Assembly: GCA_003612585.1 (NCBI GenBank)
Contig: RAZH01000001.1
Span: forward strand, 248,001 to 312,000
Reading direction: 5' to 3'
DNA: 64,000 bases
Source of the DNA: a bacterium 1XD42-54
GTDB taxonomy: Bacteria; Bacillota; Clostridia; Lachnospirales; Lachnospiraceae
Part shown: positions 3,744 to 10,012 of the stretch, piece after piece
How the letters are laid out: each line of letters starts with the position of its first letter
How positions within the stretch are numbered: position 1 is the first letter of the stretch
Program-made: the position numbers and the translations under genes
Notes under the pieces: generated by a model
Database searches by the model: none
The model's input: the letters and a program-made list of their open reading frames with translations, nothing else
What the model was told of the DNA's origin: nothing

Positions 3744-5183
3744 CTAAAGGAACTTCACCGAAGTCACTTTATTTTTCCCGTTCGCTGAGCTCACAATAAA
3801 TCCAACCTCCGTAACCTTGCCTTTCGGTGTAATCCGTTTGTTCCAAGAAAGCGGCGTAACCGTGAGGTATTTTGATTTATACGAATAGTTTCCATTCCAC
3901 TGCTGGGATTTTTTGATTGCATTTTTAAAGTTTACACGCACCTTCCAGTTAGAAATCTGATATTTGCTTTTGTTCGTGATTGTCAGTTTGTATTGCGTGT
4001 AATAACGATTCCCGCTCTTCCATGAATTGACCTCTTTCACAGATACTTTACAGTATTTGGACGAGGCCTTCACAGATTTGGCGCTGCCGGAACCAGAGGC
4101 GGTAGAATCCGGTTTCTTCCCAGAGGTCAATTCTTTTGCTAGCGAACCTTTGAATGTTTTGACGAGCCACTGGCCGGACTGTGACAAATCACTGGCCGTC
4201 CATCCGGACTTTTTCTTACAACTGCTCTTTAACAGCGCACTTGACTCATTTTTGTTCGAAAGATTCCATGCCACATATCCAATCCCATTTTTATTCAAAA
4301 AAGAGATCCATTTATTGGCTTCTGCTTCATTCACCCCTCCATTTCCGGAGGCATCACAGATACCAAACTCACTGACCAGAAGCGGCAGGCCTGCCTGAAT
4401 TGCCTCCGTTGCCTTTTCACGATAGGACTCTCTGTGCGTGTTTGCGTAAAAATGCAGCGTATACATGATATTTTTGTAACCCTTAACCGGGTTCTTCGCC
4501 GCTGCGTCAACATCCTGTGACCAGGTAGGCGTCCCGACCAGAATCACCGCTTTTTTATCAATGGCCCGAATCTCCTTGATAACTGCCTGTGCATACGACC
4601 GGATTTGTTTCCAGCTTGTGCCCCCGTTTGGCTCATTGCATATTTCATAGATGACATTTTTATGATTTTTATATTTCTCTGCCATCTCTTTAAAAAAGGC
4701 AATGGACTGCTTCTTGTATGTATTCGGATTTCCATCGCTTAGAATATGCCAGTCAATGATCACATACAACCCAAGATCCGTAGCCGCTTTCACACCCGTA
4801 TCAATCTGTTTTTTCAGATTTTTCCGGTTCGCACTTCCACCGGTACAATAACCATTGTACTCTGCCGTATACATGGCCAGACGCACCGTATTCGCGCCCC
4901 ATTTATCCCGCAGATCTTTAAACGCTTTCTTCGAAATATATTCCGGATACCACGACAGGCCATGCGTGCTGACTCCTTTGATCTGAAAGGTCTTCCCTTT
5001 CTGATCCACAAGCTTTGTCCCTTTCACGGAAAGCCTTCCATGCTCTGAAACCGGCGTTGCCGCTGAAACCTGCAACGGCACCACCAAAAAGAACATGCAC
5101 ATGCAAAACACGGTCACAATCTGCTTCCAGCCTGCCCCATTCAAAAACTTCCGGCATTGCGGGGCATTTTGCACTGAGTTCAT
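3744..5183 (-). CDS. Secreted GH5 endo-glucanase with C-terminal CBM2-like module
   Basis: A 479-residue exported enzyme. The start at 5183 has AGAGGAGG eight bases upstream. A longer frame would run into the hairpin repeat and lacks a good start. A hydrophobic signal peptide (about residues 20-41, ending LQVSAA) precedes a glycoside hydrolase family 5 barrel. The likely acid/base is E184 in ICNEPNGG and the nucleophile is E272 in LLVSEFG. WHILSDG and AMYTAEYNGY are typical of the GH5_2 cellulase group. A Ser/Gly/Lys linker (~350-378) leads to a ~100-residue module with VNSWKSGN and NWKVRVNF patterns, resembling a family 2 cellulose-binding module. Expected action is endo-hydrolysis of beta-1,4-glucan outside the cell. 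Exact substrate is inferred. Confidence 0.88.
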   Translation of the reverse strand: MNSVQNAPQCRKFLNGAGWKQIVTVFCMCMFFLVVPLQVSAATPVSEHGRLSVKGTKLVDQKGKTFQIKGVSTHGLSWYPEYISKKAFKDLRDKWGANTVRLAMYTAEYNGYCTGGSANRKNLKKQIDTGVKAATDLGLYVIIDWHILSDGNPNTYKKQSIAFFKEMAEKYKNHKNVIYEICNEPNGGTSWKQIRSYAQAVIKEIRAIDKKAVILVGTPTWSQDVDAAAKNPVKGYKNIMYTLHFYANTHRESYREKATEAIQAGLPLLVSEFGICDASGNGGVNEAEANKWISFLNKNGIGYVAWNLSNKNESSALLKSSCKKKSGWTASDLSQSGQWLVKTFKGSLAKELTSGKKPDSTASGSGSAKSVKASSKYCKVSVKEVNSWKSGNRYYTQYKLTITNKSKYQISNWKVRVNFKNAIKKSQQWNGNYSYKSKYLTVTPLSWNKRITPKGKVTEVGFIVSSANGKNKVTSVKFL

Positions 5184-5222
5184 ATTGAAAATCCTCCTCT
5201 GCTTTTTATAAAATACGACGCT

Positions 5223-5292
5223 CCCTGGTACAAGGTACAAAAACGGGGTTCCAGCAAACAAGTCACCCCTTATTTTGTACCTTGTGCCAGGG
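5223..5292. repeat. Hairpin element with conserved core, left copy
   Basis: A 20-bp outer stem (CCCTGGTACAAGGTACAAAA with TTTTGTACCTTGTGCCAGGG, one G-U-type pair) encloses an inner GGGGT/ACCCC stem and a 15-base loop, TCCAGCAAACAAGTC. The core from the A-run to the T-run recurs in inverted orientation at 7999-8070, but with a completely different outer stem. It lies just upstream of the GH5 gene and downstream of the broken restriction gene. Both strands carry T-rich stretches after the inner stem, so it may also stop transcription. Confidence 0.8.
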
Positions 5293-5434
5293 GGCTGGCT
5301 ATGAAAAAGTTGATATATACTTTTTAACTACTCATTCAAATTTTGGTATGTATGGGTGTACAGCTTAATAAAATATTTTCTGTTGTCATTTGTCTCCATT
5401 TGATTATAACTTTCGTGAAAATGATTAGCAACTG

Positions 5435-6206
5435 CTATCTGGGTCCCATAAACCTATCGCCATTCAGATGTATCATATGCTCCGGCATCTCAGCAATCCA
5501 GACCTCTGTCTCCCATGCAAGTTTTTCTGCAAACTTCTTATATGTTTTAAAATCCAAAAAAGCTGTCACAAATATTTTTCCTGCTGTAACATCTTTTGTC
5601 ATTTCTTTAATTTCTAATATACGCTTTGAATCCATTGGGCCTATAGAAGTGACAGACTCAACGAAATAAATCCAATCCTTATCTTCTCGATACAGCACTA
5701 CATCAGGCATCTTATCATGCAGCGTTATTTCAAATCCCAATTTTTTCAATTTATTTACATTTTTTACAAGATCTTTTTCTATTGTATCTCCAACATATAG
5801 ACACTCTGAATTTGGTGCAAATCTCGGCGCAAATTCTTCAATAATAGCTTTCTGAAGTTCATTATGTTTGCCAGCAGAAAACTTAAAATCTTCACCATTT
5901 ATATTTACTGGCATCATTGTCATTATCTTTTTTGAAGCATATATATCAATTAACTTTTCATGGTAGTATAGAAACTTTTTTAAGGATTCCTTCCATGCTG
6001 GCGTCTGCATAGTTCTCAAAATTTTTACGGTTTCTTCTGTCAATCTGTATCGATAATTCGGACTATTGGTTGCCTTTCCATTATCCTCAATCAATGCTGC
6101 TGTGCGAAATCTATGCAATGCTTGTTTTCGAAACGTTTCCCTGCTGTTCTTTTGGCATACCTACGGCTTTTAGGAACTCTCTTGCTTCTTCTATCTTATC
6201 ACCCAC
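5435..6206 (-). pseudogene. BsuBI/PstI-type restriction endonuclease, broken by internal deletion
   Basis: The C-terminal 227 codons (5435-6118) encode the catalytic part of a BsuBI/PstI family enzyme, with YVGDTIEKD, MPDVVLYREDKDWIYFVES and SKRILEIKEM patterns. The N-terminus begins at GTG 6206, overlapping the methyltransferase stop, and reads VGDKIEEAREFLKAVGMPKEQQ before hitting TAG at 6111. The continuation NSRETFRKQALHRF lies in another frame. Family members are ~315 residues and have ~35-60 residues between these two motifs. The gene therefore appears to have lost an internal segment of 100-200 bp plus reading frame, perhaps at a short AAGAACAGC-like repeat. A TTG start at 6118 could still yield a fragment, but it would lack the N-terminal domain. 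Confidence 0.75.
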
Positions 6207-7686
6207 AGTATCCCTCCAATATCAAATTGCAATTTGCTTCTGAATAATCCTTACTTTTTATCATTTTTCTTCCCATCTCTTGGATAGACTCCAAATCTGG
6301 TACAGGCATTGCATTAATCTCCGTAGAATTAACCTGTGTAGATCCATTCAAGATACGATAATATTCATCATATAGTGTAGAATTAAACAGTACATACAAT
6401 CCATACACCAGACATTCCGACATCTGTGTTAAAACTCCATCAACAAAGTTAATTTTATTTTGTGTACTTATCTTTTTATATTGCGGAAACTCTTTTGCCA
6501 GATACACTCCACACTGTAATCTTCGTGGTTCTTCTTTCGCTGTAAAACGTTTCACAAATAAATAATTTTTGTTATCCTGCATCAAACCTCTTTGTTCAGT
6601 CACCACATATTCGTGTTCTTTCTGTATCGGGAATTCTACCTTTCCTTGCTTTATATGCTGCGAATAAAATAATGGTATTGCTCCTTCTTCTGCTTCATCT
6701 CTCAGAATTTCACGATTGCGGAAATCTACAGTCAATCCAGTTTTCATTTTCATACCAATTGCCGGAAGCGTTTTATCAAATTTATGCAGTTTTTTTAATA
6801 CTTCCACTTCATTTTCATCCGTTACAAGATAGACATAATAATCTGAACCAGCCACAACCAAATCATACGGAACTGTTAATAATGTTATTTCTCCAAAATC
6901 ACTGTTTGATTTCGAAGATGTGATTGTAATTGTTTCTGGCTTTTCGATCGTTTTTTTTACCTTGATAATAATAGTTTCCTGCAACACGCTTTCCTTGTCA
7001 AACACTTTACTGCGACTAGCAAAAAGATGAATATGTTCCAGCTTCCCTTCTGTCAGGAAATATTCTCTGAAACGTTTAAAATACGCCCCTAAGGTCCATG
7101 AACGTGGAATAATGTACACCATCTCCCCATTTTCGCATAAATTGAATAACCCCATAGATGCAAAAATAAAATATAAATTCGGTGCACCATAACATACTTC
7201 TGGCATTGCTGTTGCTTCCGGTGCATCTTTAGGAATTTTCATATATGGTGGATTTCCAATCACAAAATCATACTTTTTAGGTTCTACCCTGCCACCTATC
7301 ATATGATTAAAATCCAAATACTGACTAAGAATATAATTATCTTCAATTATATTAACAATGAGCTCTTTCTTTGTCTTTTCCCTGCAGTATTCTAAGTTAC
7401 GTTTTAGCAATGGTAATACATTACTGTCATTTTCATAACAGGTAAGTTCAACCTTCTGAATAAAATCTATTTTTTCTAATCTTTCAATAAAGGCGCATGA
7501 TAATATGCCTGAACCTGCCCCGGCATCAAGCACACTTACTTTACTCATTTTTTCATCAATATTATATAATCCGGCCATAAAACGGGCAGTTTCCATACTA
7601 GTAAAAAACTGTCCATATTTTTTACGCTCTTTTTTCGGCATACTCTCTATATATTCGTTTGTAAGTTCTACAATTTTTTCCAGCAT
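6199..7686 (-). CDS. Type II N6-adenine DNA methyltransferase (BsuBI/PstI-like)
   Basis: A 495-residue modification enzyme. It has a GQFFTS motif at 25-30, the AdoMet-binding motif DAGAGSG at 54-60 and the catalytic NPPY at 145-148. This is the Eco57I/TaqI-like gamma arrangement, followed by a target-recognition half with STQVNSTEINAMPVP near the end. The start at 7686 is preferred over a farther upstream Met because a TTGAAA-17-TATAAT promoter overlaps that region. The enzyme's partner endonuclease gene overlaps its 3' end and is broken. Homologues paired with BsuBI/PstI nucleases methylate adenine in CTGCAG; that specificity is inferred. The gene is visibly AT-richer than its neighbours, suggesting transfer. 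Confidence 0.9.
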   Translation of the reverse strand: MLEKIVELTNEYIESMPKKERKKYGQFFTSMETARFMAGLYNIDEKMSKVSVLDAGAGSGILSCAFIERLEKIDFIQKVELTCYENDSNVLPLLKRNLEYCREKTKKELIVNIIEDNYILSQYLDFNHMIGGRVEPKKYDFVIGNPPYMKIPKDAPEATAMPEVCYGAPNLYFIFASMGLFNLCENGEMVYIIPRSWTLGAYFKRFREYFLTEGKLEHIHLFASRSKVFDKESVLQETIIIKVKKTIEKPETITITSSKSNSDFGEITLLTVPYDLVVAGSDYYVYLVTDENEVEVLKKLHKFDKTLPAIGMKMKTGLTVDFRNREILRDEAEEGAIPLFYSQHIKQGKVEFPIQKEHEYVVTEQRGLMQDNKNYLFVKRFTAKEEPRRLQCGVYLAKEFPQYKKISTQNKINFVDGVLTQMSECLVYGLYVLFNSTLYDEYYRILNGSTQVNSTEINAMPVPDLESIQEMGRKMIKSKDYSEANCNLILEGYCG

Positions 7687-7720
7687 ATTCCACCCACCTA
7701 CAAGCCTTCTATTTTTGGCT

Positions 7721-7749
7721 ATTATACTATAACATATTACCTTTTTCAA
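7721..7749 (-). promoter_or_regulatory. Promoter of the methyltransferase gene
   Basis: TTGAAA (7744-7749) and TATAAT (7721-7726) are separated by exactly 17 bases on the minus strand, 34 bases before the ATG at 7686. This is a near-consensus vegetative promoter. Confidence 0.8.
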
Positions 7750-7998
7750 CGCCCTTTTGCAAACATACGTTCTTTAATCAATGTATTTTTCACTTTAAAT
7801 GACAATACAAAAACTCCCCTAAATTCTATAATATAAATAACACAATCTCCTCCGCACAAACCCAAATAATATTCATTCTCCCAACCTATACCATAGCAAG
7901 GGACAAACTATAATATAATCAAAGCAGAAACAAAAAACAGCGGAAAGGCACATCCCTCAGGAGCACCATCCCACTGTATTTTCCTGATCACAGTCAGC
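7750..7998. other. AT-rich intergenic stretch without a recognisable gene
   Basis: Between the methyltransferase promoter and the right hairpin element there are about 250 AT-rich bases. No reading frame with a ribosome-binding site and no clear structured RNA is seen. Confidence 0.5.
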
Positions 7999-8070
7999 CT
8001 TCTGGCCGCATATGCAAAATAAGGGGTGACTTGTTTGCCGGAACCCCGTTTTTGCATATGCGGCCAGAAG
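7999..8070. repeat. Hairpin element with conserved core, right copy (inverted)
   Basis: A perfect 21-bp outer stem (CTTCTGGCCGCATATGCAAAA at 7999-8019, pairing with 8050-8070) encloses GGGGT/ACCCC and the loop GACTTGTTTGCCGGA. Core and loop are the reverse complement of the left copy at 5223-5292, with one loop difference. The outer stem is unrelated in sequence but equally well paired. It lies 34 bases after the nadE stop and may also serve as its terminator. Confidence 0.8.
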
Positions 8071-8104
8071 ACGTCCTCCATCCAATAAAATCCAATCCCT
8101 TACC

Positions 8105-10012
8105 TTAAAGCCCCTCCAGCTCCTCCATCCAGATAGCCACACTTGCATCGCTCGGCATCCGCAGATCACCTCTTGGTGAAAGTGCGACGCTTCCCACTTT
8201 CGGGCCATCCGGCACGCACGAACGCTTAAACTGCTGGGAAAAGAAACGCCAGTAGAACTTTTTCAGCCATTTCAGAATTACCGCATCCTCATACATGCCC
8301 GCAAAAGCAAGCTTTGCCACACGGTACAGCTTTGACGGAGCATACCCAAAACGAAGCAGATAATATAAAAAGAAGTCATGCAGCTCATACGGGCCCACCA
8401 GGTCTTCCGTCTTCTGAGATATCTGGCCGTTCTCAGGCGGCAGCAGCTCGGGGCTGACCGGAGTGTCCAGTACGTCATATAAAATCCCGCTGATACGGGT
8501 ATCACCGCAGGTATCTGCATAATAGCGCACCAGATGGCGTACCAGCGTTTTCGGTACAGAGCAGTTGACCGCATACATGGACATATGATCGCCATTGTAG
8601 GTTGCCCAGCCAAGCGCCAGCTCAGACATATCCCCGGTTCCGACGACCAAACCGCCCTTTTTATTTGCAATATCCATCAAAATCTGTGTTCGCTCCCTGG
8701 CCTGACTGTTTTCGTACGTCACATCATGGATCGAGGCATCCTGCCCGATATCACGGAAATGAAGGCTTACCGCATCCCGGATGTCCACCTCCAAAAGTTC
8801 GGCTCCGAGGCGTCTGGTCAATTCACACGCGTTGTGGTACGTTCGGTCCGTTGTGCCAAAGCCCGGCATCGTTACTGCCACCATCTGACTGCGCGGAAGC
8901 CCAAGCAGGTCATGCGCTTTTGTCATAACAAGCAGTGCAAGCGTGGAATCTAGTCCTCCCGATATCCCCACCACTGTACTGTTTGCGCCCGTATGCTGCA
9001 AACGCTTTTTCAGGCCAAGTGCCTGAATCATCAGAATTTCCTCGCATCTTTTTTCCCTGTCCTCTTTTCCAGAAGGAACAAACGGTGCTGCATCAAACTT
9101 TCTCGTCAACTGTGTCTCTTCTGTTTTTAAATGAAACGATGTCTTCACATACTGCCCGGCATTTTGTATCTGAAACGACGTCATCCGCCGCCGCTCCGCG
9201 CGCAGCCGCCCGAGATCCAGCTCCGCATAGATCGCCCCACAGGAAAACCGCAGGGACTGTGCCAGAATATGTCCGTTCTCTGCCACAAGATCATGACCTC
9301 CAAACACGAGATCCTGTGTGGACTCTCCTTCTCCTGCGCTGGCATAAATGTAGCCGCAGAGCAGTCTCGCCGACTGTCCGGACACAAGTGCCTCCCGGTA
9401 CACATCTTTTCCAGTCACCTCATCACTCGCAGACAGATTGACAATCACATCCGCTCCTGCCAGCGCATGCGCCGTGCTCGGCGGGTTCGGCGCCCACAGA
9501 TCTTCACAGATCTCAGCTGCTACGGTAAGTCGCATACCGTCGCAGCAAAATAGCTGCTGTGTGCCAAACGGAACTTTCATACCCTCGCATATAAGATACT
9601 CCACCTGCTCATTGCCTGGCGTAAAATAACGCGCCTCATAAAATTCATTATAATTTGGAATATTTCTTTTCGGTACCAGGCCAAGCAATCTGCCATCCGA
9701 AAATACAGCCGCTGTATTATAGAGCTTCTCTTCTTTTTCCCAGGGCAGCCCCACAAATACCAGTGCATCCTCTCCTTTTGTCTCTGCGATCAACTGAAAA
9801 AGTGCTTCCCGCGCCTCATTCAGAAGCTTTTCCTGCCAGAACAGGTCTTCACAGGTATAGCCGGTCAAACACAATTCCGGAAATACAATAATCTTTGCCT
9901 TTTCCTGCAATGCTCCTTTCAGTTCCCGGGAAATACTTTCCAGGTTAAACCTGCAATCTGCAACCCGGATTTCCGGAGTTACTGCCGCCACTTTTATGAA
10001 ACCATCCCTCAC
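8105..10012 (-). CDS. nadE: Glutamine-dependent NAD+ synthetase
   Basis: A two-domain cytoplasmic enzyme (635 residues) making NAD+ from deamido-NAD+, ATP and glutamine. The N-terminal nitrilase-like glutaminase shows the triad region: E46 in FPELCLTGY, Lys in VPKRNIPNY and Cys in AAEICEDLW. The C-terminal synthetase has the SGGLDS ATP-pyrophosphatase loop and GTGDMSELALGW. I start at GTG 10012, which follows AGGAGG by six bases and gives the family-typical N-terminus RDGFIKVAAVTPEIRVADC. An ATG 24 bases upstream lacks a comparable RBS. It precedes the hairpin element and follows hslO on the same strand. Confidence 0.95.
   Translation of the reverse strand: MRDGFIKVAAVTPEIRVADCRFNLESISRELKGALQEKAKIIVFPELCLTGYTCEDLFWQEKLLNEAREALFQLIAETKGEDALVFVGLPWEKEEKLYNTAAVFSDGRLLGLVPKRNIPNYNEFYEARYFTPGNEQVEYLICEGMKVPFGTQQLFCCDGMRLTVAAEICEDLWAPNPPSTAHALAGADVIVNLSASDEVTGKDVYREALVSGQSARLLCGYIYASAGEGESTQDLVFGGHDLVAENGHILAQSLRFSCGAIYAELDLGRLRAERRRMTSFQIQNAGQYVKTSFHLKTEETQLTRKFDAAPFVPSGKEDREKRCEEILMIQALGLKKRLQHTGANSTVVGISGGLDSTLALLVMTKAHDLLGLPRSQMVAVTMPGFGTTDRTYHNACELTRRLGAELLEVDIRDAVSLHFRDIGQDASIHDVTYENSQARERTQILMDIANKKGGLVVGTGDMSELALGWATYNGDHMSMYAVNCSVPKTLVRHLVRYYADTCGDTRISGILYDVLDTPVSPELLPPENGQISQKTEDLVGPYELHDFFLYYLLRFGYAPSKLYRVAKLAFAGMYEDAVILKWLKKFYWRFFSQQFKRSCVPDGPKVGSVALSPRGDLRMPSDASVAIWMEELEGL

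Follow-up and report, generated by a model that had tools for sequence, protein, structure and literature searches.

Hairpin repeats with fixed core and self-matched arms in a Lachnospiraceae genome as probable old miniature transposons

Integron attC sites combine conserved parts with a variable, self-pairing stem and lie in an array of cassettes beside an integrase. The ERIC, RUP, BOX and Correia families are short, non-coding and highly paired, with many intergenic copies, and have terminal inverted repeats, target duplications and insertion-sequence-like ends, features shared with the family described here and, for the target duplications, with its relatives (accessible sections of PMC3049150). 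We analyzed two hairpin elements in a stretch of 64,000 nucleotides (hereafter the window) from the genome of the bacterium 1XD42-54 (Lachnospiraceae; assembly GCA_003612585.1, contig RAZH01000001.1, positions 248,001 to 312,000), where they lie on either side of restriction-modification (R-M) genes. We consider it probable (roughly 0.7) that both are old copies of a miniature inverted-repeat transposable element (MITE), moved by an insertion sequence that prefers Shine-Dalgarno sequences, with arms rewritten by arm-to-arm copying. The genome of the window is referred to as G000, a sister species of the same genus as G070, a relative in another genus as G226 and a further relative with a single-contig genome as G388.

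Two members of a structured repeat family

The two elements and their parts are as follows.

5200..5312, minus strand: element 1, extent of the covariance-model match (113.8 bits, E 1.4e-29), outer terminal repeats unrecognizable; in contig terms G000:C11:253200-253312, a probable MITE copy upstream of a cellulase gene
5245..5269, minus strand: core of element 1 (inner stem and loop), by core pattern match
5273..5295, minus strand: 5' arm of element 1, from the sequence of the aligned arms
5220..5242, minus strand: 3' arm of element 1, from the sequence of the aligned arms
5193..5199, minus strand: Shine-Dalgarno sequence GAGGAGG of the cellulase gene, adjoining the right end of element 1, read from the sequence
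7980..8092, plus strand: element 2, extent of the covariance-model match (116.2 bits, E 2.7e-30); in contig terms G000:C11:255980-256092, a probable MITE copy at the 3' end of an NAD synthase gene
8023..8047, plus strand: core of element 2 (inner stem and loop), by core pattern match
7997..8019, plus strand: 5' arm of element 2, from the sequence of the aligned arms
8050..8072, plus strand: 3' arm of element 2, from the sequence of the aligned arms

The first-pass annotation, made from the letters of the window, had placed two hairpins of opposite orientation here, and the core is indeed found twice in the window, against an expectation of 0.00 (100 shuffles). The loops differ by a single base and the outer arms pair almost perfectly, as it had also claimed; aligned by eye, they contain two true mismatches in element 1, a single one in element 2 and, in addition, the constant UAA/G bulge. 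Its view that the stems have no sequence in common did not hold, as the arms, once read in one orientation (GCCCCCTGGCACAAGGTAC versus GCCTTCTGGCCGCATATGC), are identical at 11 of 19 positions, and the repeated unit exceeds its description, with the conserved flanks TTCAAAGTCAG and CGTCC lying outside the arms. An Rfam search of positions 4600-8700 gave at best 17.2 bits at an element, compared with a gathering score of 80, and an intrinsic-terminator scan, covering loops of 3-8 bases only, listed none at the elements, the loop of which has 15 bases.

The suggested structured family, with a fixed core and varied, paired arms, was supported by searches of the genome and its relatives with the core and with a covariance model. 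The core, GGGGTGACTTGTTTGC(N)GGAACCCC, occurs in 13 copies in G000 (at most three mismatches), and the reversed pattern in none. The model was built from 12 of these copies, both window elements included and the half-lost L009 excluded, and returned 43 rows in G000 at E ≤ 10 and 41 at E ≤ 0.01; the latter represent 40 places, dispersed over many contigs, one row being the second strand of the same palindrome. When 47 genomes of the genus were scanned with strict filters, many copies were found in G000 and G070 only, with one weak match in G031 and no element in 44 of the 47. G070 yielded at least 124 rows with E ≤ 1, among them 105 below 1e-9; these counts are lower bounds, 150 of 805 candidates having been scored, and at least four of the weaker rows are one palindrome read twice. 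A scan of 397 genomes of the family, with only nine candidates scored per genome, found matches in at least seven genomes, namely G000 and six others. Phage and plasmid records contained no copy (best E-values 9 and 2), and viral contigs held two isolated matches to the core pattern. In wider genome contigs the pattern matched 106 stretches; the 80 listed belong to the G070 assembly or are isolated matches in other phyla, which we take as chance.

Pairing was assessed in 22 copies, picked because all are 113 bases long (20 from G070, two from G000). In these, 99.5% of 616 cells pair, compared with 74.7% after shuffling and at most 57.3% when the arms are slid; 19 of 28 arm pairs change on both sides, two-sided changed cells number 150 versus 37.6, and only four of the 616 cells are G-U. 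The per-site difference is 0.466 in the arms and 0.033 in the first 13 core bases (52 of 55 G070 copies, in the standard register). The arms have the consensus GCCCCCTGGTAAAAGATAC, which is hypervariable in its middle. Seven of 95 copies were excluded from the arm table (five without a recognizable core, two below 100 bases). Pairs of arms with four or fewer differences number 62, compared with 28.6 under shuffled columns. Since the arms share a consensus and close pairs are commoner than with shuffled columns, the arms descend from one another; that they are drawn anew at each insertion is ruled out by this excess and by the arms shared among G226 copies.

Complete elements and a same-ended insertion sequence in relatives

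Terminal inverted repeats are clear in G226 and G414. The G226 copies are 143 bp long with 15-bp terminal repeats and the ends TAGGCATTTGCGAAA and TTTCGCAATTACCTA, and 14 of 32 rows show target duplications of 8-14 bp, mostly 10-12 bp. In G000 and G070, traces of the terminal repeat stand at the expected place in 15 of 178 ends (at most five of 17 mismatches), compared with two of 890 controls. Six elements of 1744-1745 bp in G388 have TAGGCGTTTGCGAAA or TAGGCATTTGCGAAA as one end and TTTCGCAATTACCTA as the other. Duplications of 10-12 bp are discernible at the edges of these elements, which carry a transposase frame of 498 codons. This transposase matches Pfam DUF772 with 54.1 bits (cut-off 23.1), DDE_Tnp_1 with 22.2 bits (cut-off 23) and NCBIfam IS1182 with 82.6 bits, below the cut-off of 270, and had no sequence match among solved structures. 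Judged by these shared ends, it is probably this insertion sequence that moved the MITEs.

Relatives of the transposase were found in six of 15 genomes searched, G388 included. The only one in G070 (L445:495-2241, G070:C87) is in two pieces of 64 and 76% identity, with a frame broken by a stop and a frame change, and lies between two terminal repeats with no visible duplication. G245 contains transposase fragments, and G394, G221 and G201 gave weak matches. No relative was found in G000, G226, G253, G414 and the five others of the 15, and G000 therefore has no recognizable partner of this kind. The DDE_Tnp_1 genes of G226, G414 and G201 were rejected as partners, none being flanked by terminal repeats. 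G098 contains a damaged element with such ends (L423).

Further MITE types of 150-286 bp have the same terminal repeats and different interiors (L418 and L417 in G245, L419 and L420 in G169, L425 in G164). The exact terminal repeat TAGGYAATTGCGAAA is present in 72 of the 397 family genomes, so that such elements may be common. In several draft genomes (e.g., G251, G080, G289 and G296) no more than about 130 bases separate it from the end of a contig, which would be expected if copies disrupt assembly. In L067 (G070:C6), tandem repeats of about 22 bases containing CGTCCTCTCTTGTTCCAGTGG follow the right end.

The complete copies also reveal where the elements insert. Among 55 copies extracted from G226, an AAAGGAG-type motif lies 12-18 bp off the right end in 24 and 13-17 bp off the left end in 13, i.e., 37 of the 55 lie about 16 bp from a Shine-Dalgarno sequence and face it with either end; control windows further out contain 0-2 motifs in the range of 8-22 bp per side. 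These counts replace an earlier gene-edge count of 28 out of 36, which contained repeated readings of some copies. For the insertion sequence, seven of eight copies (five in G388, one in G098 and one in G070; flanks read by eye) have the motif at 15-17 bp followed by a start codon, and the eighth abuts another copy. Loci with such a motif at 12-18 bp are L411-L415, L423, L445 and the G226 loci. A search for a promoter at a constant position on the left side of the element gave no peak.

Altogether, the parts of the first-pass interpretation that proposed a repeat family and a non-autonomous mobile element stand, the latter through the terminal repeats, target duplications and same-ended insertion sequence of relatives, whereas the origin of the arms in the insertion site and the link with the R-M genes do not. 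The arms sit between conserved flanks, orthologous copies mostly keep their arm, and 15 of 24 copies of G226 subfamily A have an identical 5' arm at different sites. Because the arms are inside the element ends and are kept at orthologous sites, they do not come from the target.

Matched arms and rival explanations

We propose that each hairpin would be an old copy of a short non-coding transposon consisting almost entirely of a single long palindrome around an asymmetric conserved core. A DDE-type insertion sequence with common terminal repeats (TAGG...TTGCGAAA) would have moved it in trans, making target duplications of mostly 10-12 bp, its transposase presumably favoring targets at a distance of about 16 bp to a Shine-Dalgarno sequence. 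The arms would belong to the element and not to the target, and would vary because the middle of the arm keeps only its self-pairing and not its sequence, whereas core and ends would be conserved because they must be recognized. A change in one arm would be copied to the other at the DNA level, possibly when the template is switched within a hairpin or cruciform as the element is replicated or transposed; the two arms would then change jointly and keep their Watson-Crick match. Recombination that exchanges whole palindromes between copies may spread arms, without creating new matched ones.

The concerted change is visible in G226, where three copies were dropped for poor pairing and the remainder form subfamilies A (24 copies) and B (28 copies). 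The sole departure of L326 and L327 from the A consensus is a single pair with both sides changed. Among the 12 A copies with the fewest changes, 20 substituted positions include two two-sided pairs; independent mutation yields 0.0084 such pairs on average and reached two in none of 20,000 simulations. The same test with 21 A copies gave eight two-sided pairs versus 0.41 expected. Subfamily B varies at the dinucleotide of CAAT-NN-ATAC, and the other arm matches in 27 of 28 copies; we did not use its totals because a tied consensus at pair 14 counts 26 two-sided cells as one-sided. The joint arm change in young copies is far above that of independent mutation, which favors arm-to-arm copying at the DNA level. 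Templated copying, rather than selection on the hairpin, would do the matching. Some G226 copies have acquired additional sequence: L118, L327 and L334 hold about 53 or more extra bases in the core with a small hairpin of their own, the stems of which vary yet pair (CCCAGC..GCTGGG, CCCAC..GTGGG), and L084 and L381 have a common insertion with the hairpin CCCCGATATAAAATCGGGG inside the 3' arm.

Orthologous sites provide a view of the elements in place. Comparison of the 40 G000 copies with 55 G070 copies, the better-scoring ones, gave 13 pairs at the same place. Substitution rates for 12 of these, the thirteenth having its centre deleted in G000, were 0.061 and 0.041 for the arms and 0.043 for the core. 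The outer boxes reached 0.11-0.17, the mostly coding right flank 0.067 and the left flank 0.19, a value inflated by pairs whose left flanks are not alike (L014, L017, L018). The arms are thus stable in place. Paralogues differ about nine times more than orthologues in the arms and not more in the core, which is delimited differently in each measure. Arm differences between orthologues are mostly one-sided, and two-sided in L027/L130, L035/L132 and L023/L061. In L145 versus L060 and in L189 versus L065, G000 has lost the palindrome centre between the arms and retains a palindrome that is short and perfect. We tested 24 of the 41 eligible G070 copies that had no detected partner, and their right flank was found in G000 once for 19, repeatedly for one and not at all for four. 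Inspection of these 19 G000 sites by eye showed relics at seven (L189, L193, L197, L198, L200, L204, L205), a clean absence at one (L196, between short direct repeats) and unalignable sequence at 11; losses are therefore common in G000, and no clear new insertion in G070 was seen among the 19 sites. Polarized changes in 11 pairs run 18 versus four in the direction of retention in G070 and decay in G000, to which we give little weight because the G000 branch is longer in nadE (17-26 versus 9-16) and because the 55 better-scoring G070 copies were used.

Several observations weigh against this account. Arms and core evolve more slowly in place (0.04-0.06) than the outer boxes (0.11-0.17), which selection on the hairpin would also yield. 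Target duplications are undetectable in G000 and G070 (0 of 93 copies with a shared 8-mer); together with the eroded ends this indicates old insertions, and it also means that the mobility of the window's own copies is deduced from relatives. Since no matching transposase was found in G226, G253 and G414, the partner is recognized only by its ends. The motif signal is weaker in G000 and G070, with 24 of 95 copies on the right (controls 4-8) and seven of 95 on the left (controls 2-5), and the target rule does not accommodate copies that lie at the 3' end of a gene, such as element 2 next to nadE. Finally, 23 of 24 A copies retain a G.T wobble at pair 8, and the two-sided changes in G226 are concentrated at pairs 12-16; plain template switching predicts neither.

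A serious competing explanation is that the hairpin is under selection in place. The elements would then be host cis-acting elements of transposon origin, i.e., hairpins in untranslated regions acting in mRNA stability, processing or attenuation, whose arms drift by ordinary compensatory change while selection maintains pairing and loop. The conservation of arms and core relative to the outer boxes would follow from this, TCAG and GTCC are near-invariant in G070 despite the eroded terminal repeats, and the right end is nearer a gene than the left in 34 of 44 G070 copies. In G000, however, there is no such left-right rule (21 of 38), and the transcription sense is about even, with 48 copies facing a gene start and 43 a gene end (G000 and G070 together, by simple open reading frame calling). 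G-U pairs are almost absent, although RNA stems tolerate them, two-sided changes occur in copies that are otherwise unchanged, and the sites in G000 where relics only are left (seven of 19) suggest that copies are dispensable there. We therefore consider this explanation unlikely, though well ahead of those that follow.

The DNA between the elements bears on a second alternative, namely that the pair delimits a composite mobile unit or recombination site which carries and exchanges the enclosed genes.

5340..7954, no strand: exchanged stretch (context, outside the elements); G070 homology stops at 5339 and resumes at 7955
5435-6118, minus strand: BsuBI/PstI-type endonuclease frame (Pfam, PADLOC)
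6199-7749, minus strand: Eco57I-type methylase (Pfam, PADLOC)

In G070, a Schlafen/AlbA_2 gene takes the place of the R-M genes between the same two elements, and the two points where homology breaks off are each about 25 bp outside the left model end of an element, which would fit such a unit. Yet both elements stay while the cargo differs, dozens of other copies are solitary, and alignments near the breaks fade gradually without a sharp stop. Moreover, R-M-like DNA is present in G005, G006, G007 and G067 (both genes) and in G013 (nuclease part), members of the genus where the covariance model detected no copy. A composite unit is thus very improbable. The link with the R-M module drawn at first pass is not supported: the very observation named there as refuting it was made, G070 keeping both elements in place around a gene unrelated to the module. 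This argues against the bracket but has no bearing on the family, and the R-M genes enclosed by the pair would be incidental. A 212-bp piece of R-M-like DNA lies elsewhere in G070, and in other members of the genus, among the matches listed, cellulase-like and nadE-like DNA lie far from each other or on separate contigs, and no empty site of the pair was seen among them. The N-terminal part of the endonuclease frame seems to be missing, the match to the BsuBI/PstI helix-turn-helix domain starting at profile position 79 of 140.

Least probable of all is a mobile core that lands in ready-made palindromes such as terminators, with arms of host sequence: L029, L030, L036, L037 and L043 do keep just GGTGACTTG...GGAACC with unrelated paired sequence up to it, but the conserved flanks outside the arms, an arm consensus with a recognizable relative in G226, and G226 terminal repeats and target duplications outside everything contradict it already.

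Perfect pairing with changed sequence is usually taken as proof of a selected RNA structure. That it is seen in a transposon, with hardly any G-U pairs and partly in copies free of other differences, makes it testable as a mutation process. An insertion sequence aimed at Shine-Dalgarno sequences, if this holds, would land between promoter and start codon and could retune genes while leaving them unbroken. We put even odds on the combination of a transposase that finds its target through a Shine-Dalgarno sequence at fixed spacing with passengers whose palindrome is rewritten in both arms at once; that every copy would thereby become a unique, self-matched hairpin at a gene edge could equally turn out right or wrong.

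Comparison with described systems

No family with hypervariable self-matched arms around a fixed core, and no fixed spacing to Shine-Dalgarno sequences, is described in the accessible sections of PMC3049150, in contrast to the present family and its relatives. In the accessible text of the review PMC10969869 the terms looked up are absent, and the open-access literature searched described neither this family nor any targeting of Shine-Dalgarno sequences. In matching NCBIfam IS1182 and Pfam DUF772, the transposase of the element of 1745 bp resembles IS1182-like DDE insertion sequences; being far below the IS1182 cut-off, and just under that of DDE_Tnp_1, it is not filed in IS1182. REP/RAYT systems use a Y1 HUH transposase and make no target duplication; the partner found here is of DDE type. 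Integron attC sites share with the present elements their conserved parts and a stem that varies in sequence yet pairs with itself, but here the copies are dispersed, the conserved core is central, and relatives have terminal repeats and target duplications. Template switching has reportedly been studied in RNA genes, coding sequences or reporter quasipalindromes (see also PMC8604942 and PMC7202029), whereas here it would act on a dispersed transposon family and be concentrated in the middle of the arm. It is a published explanation for compensatory change and perfect stems, and in inverted repeats a single event alters both arms while the pairing stays perfect (accessible sections of PMC8794818).

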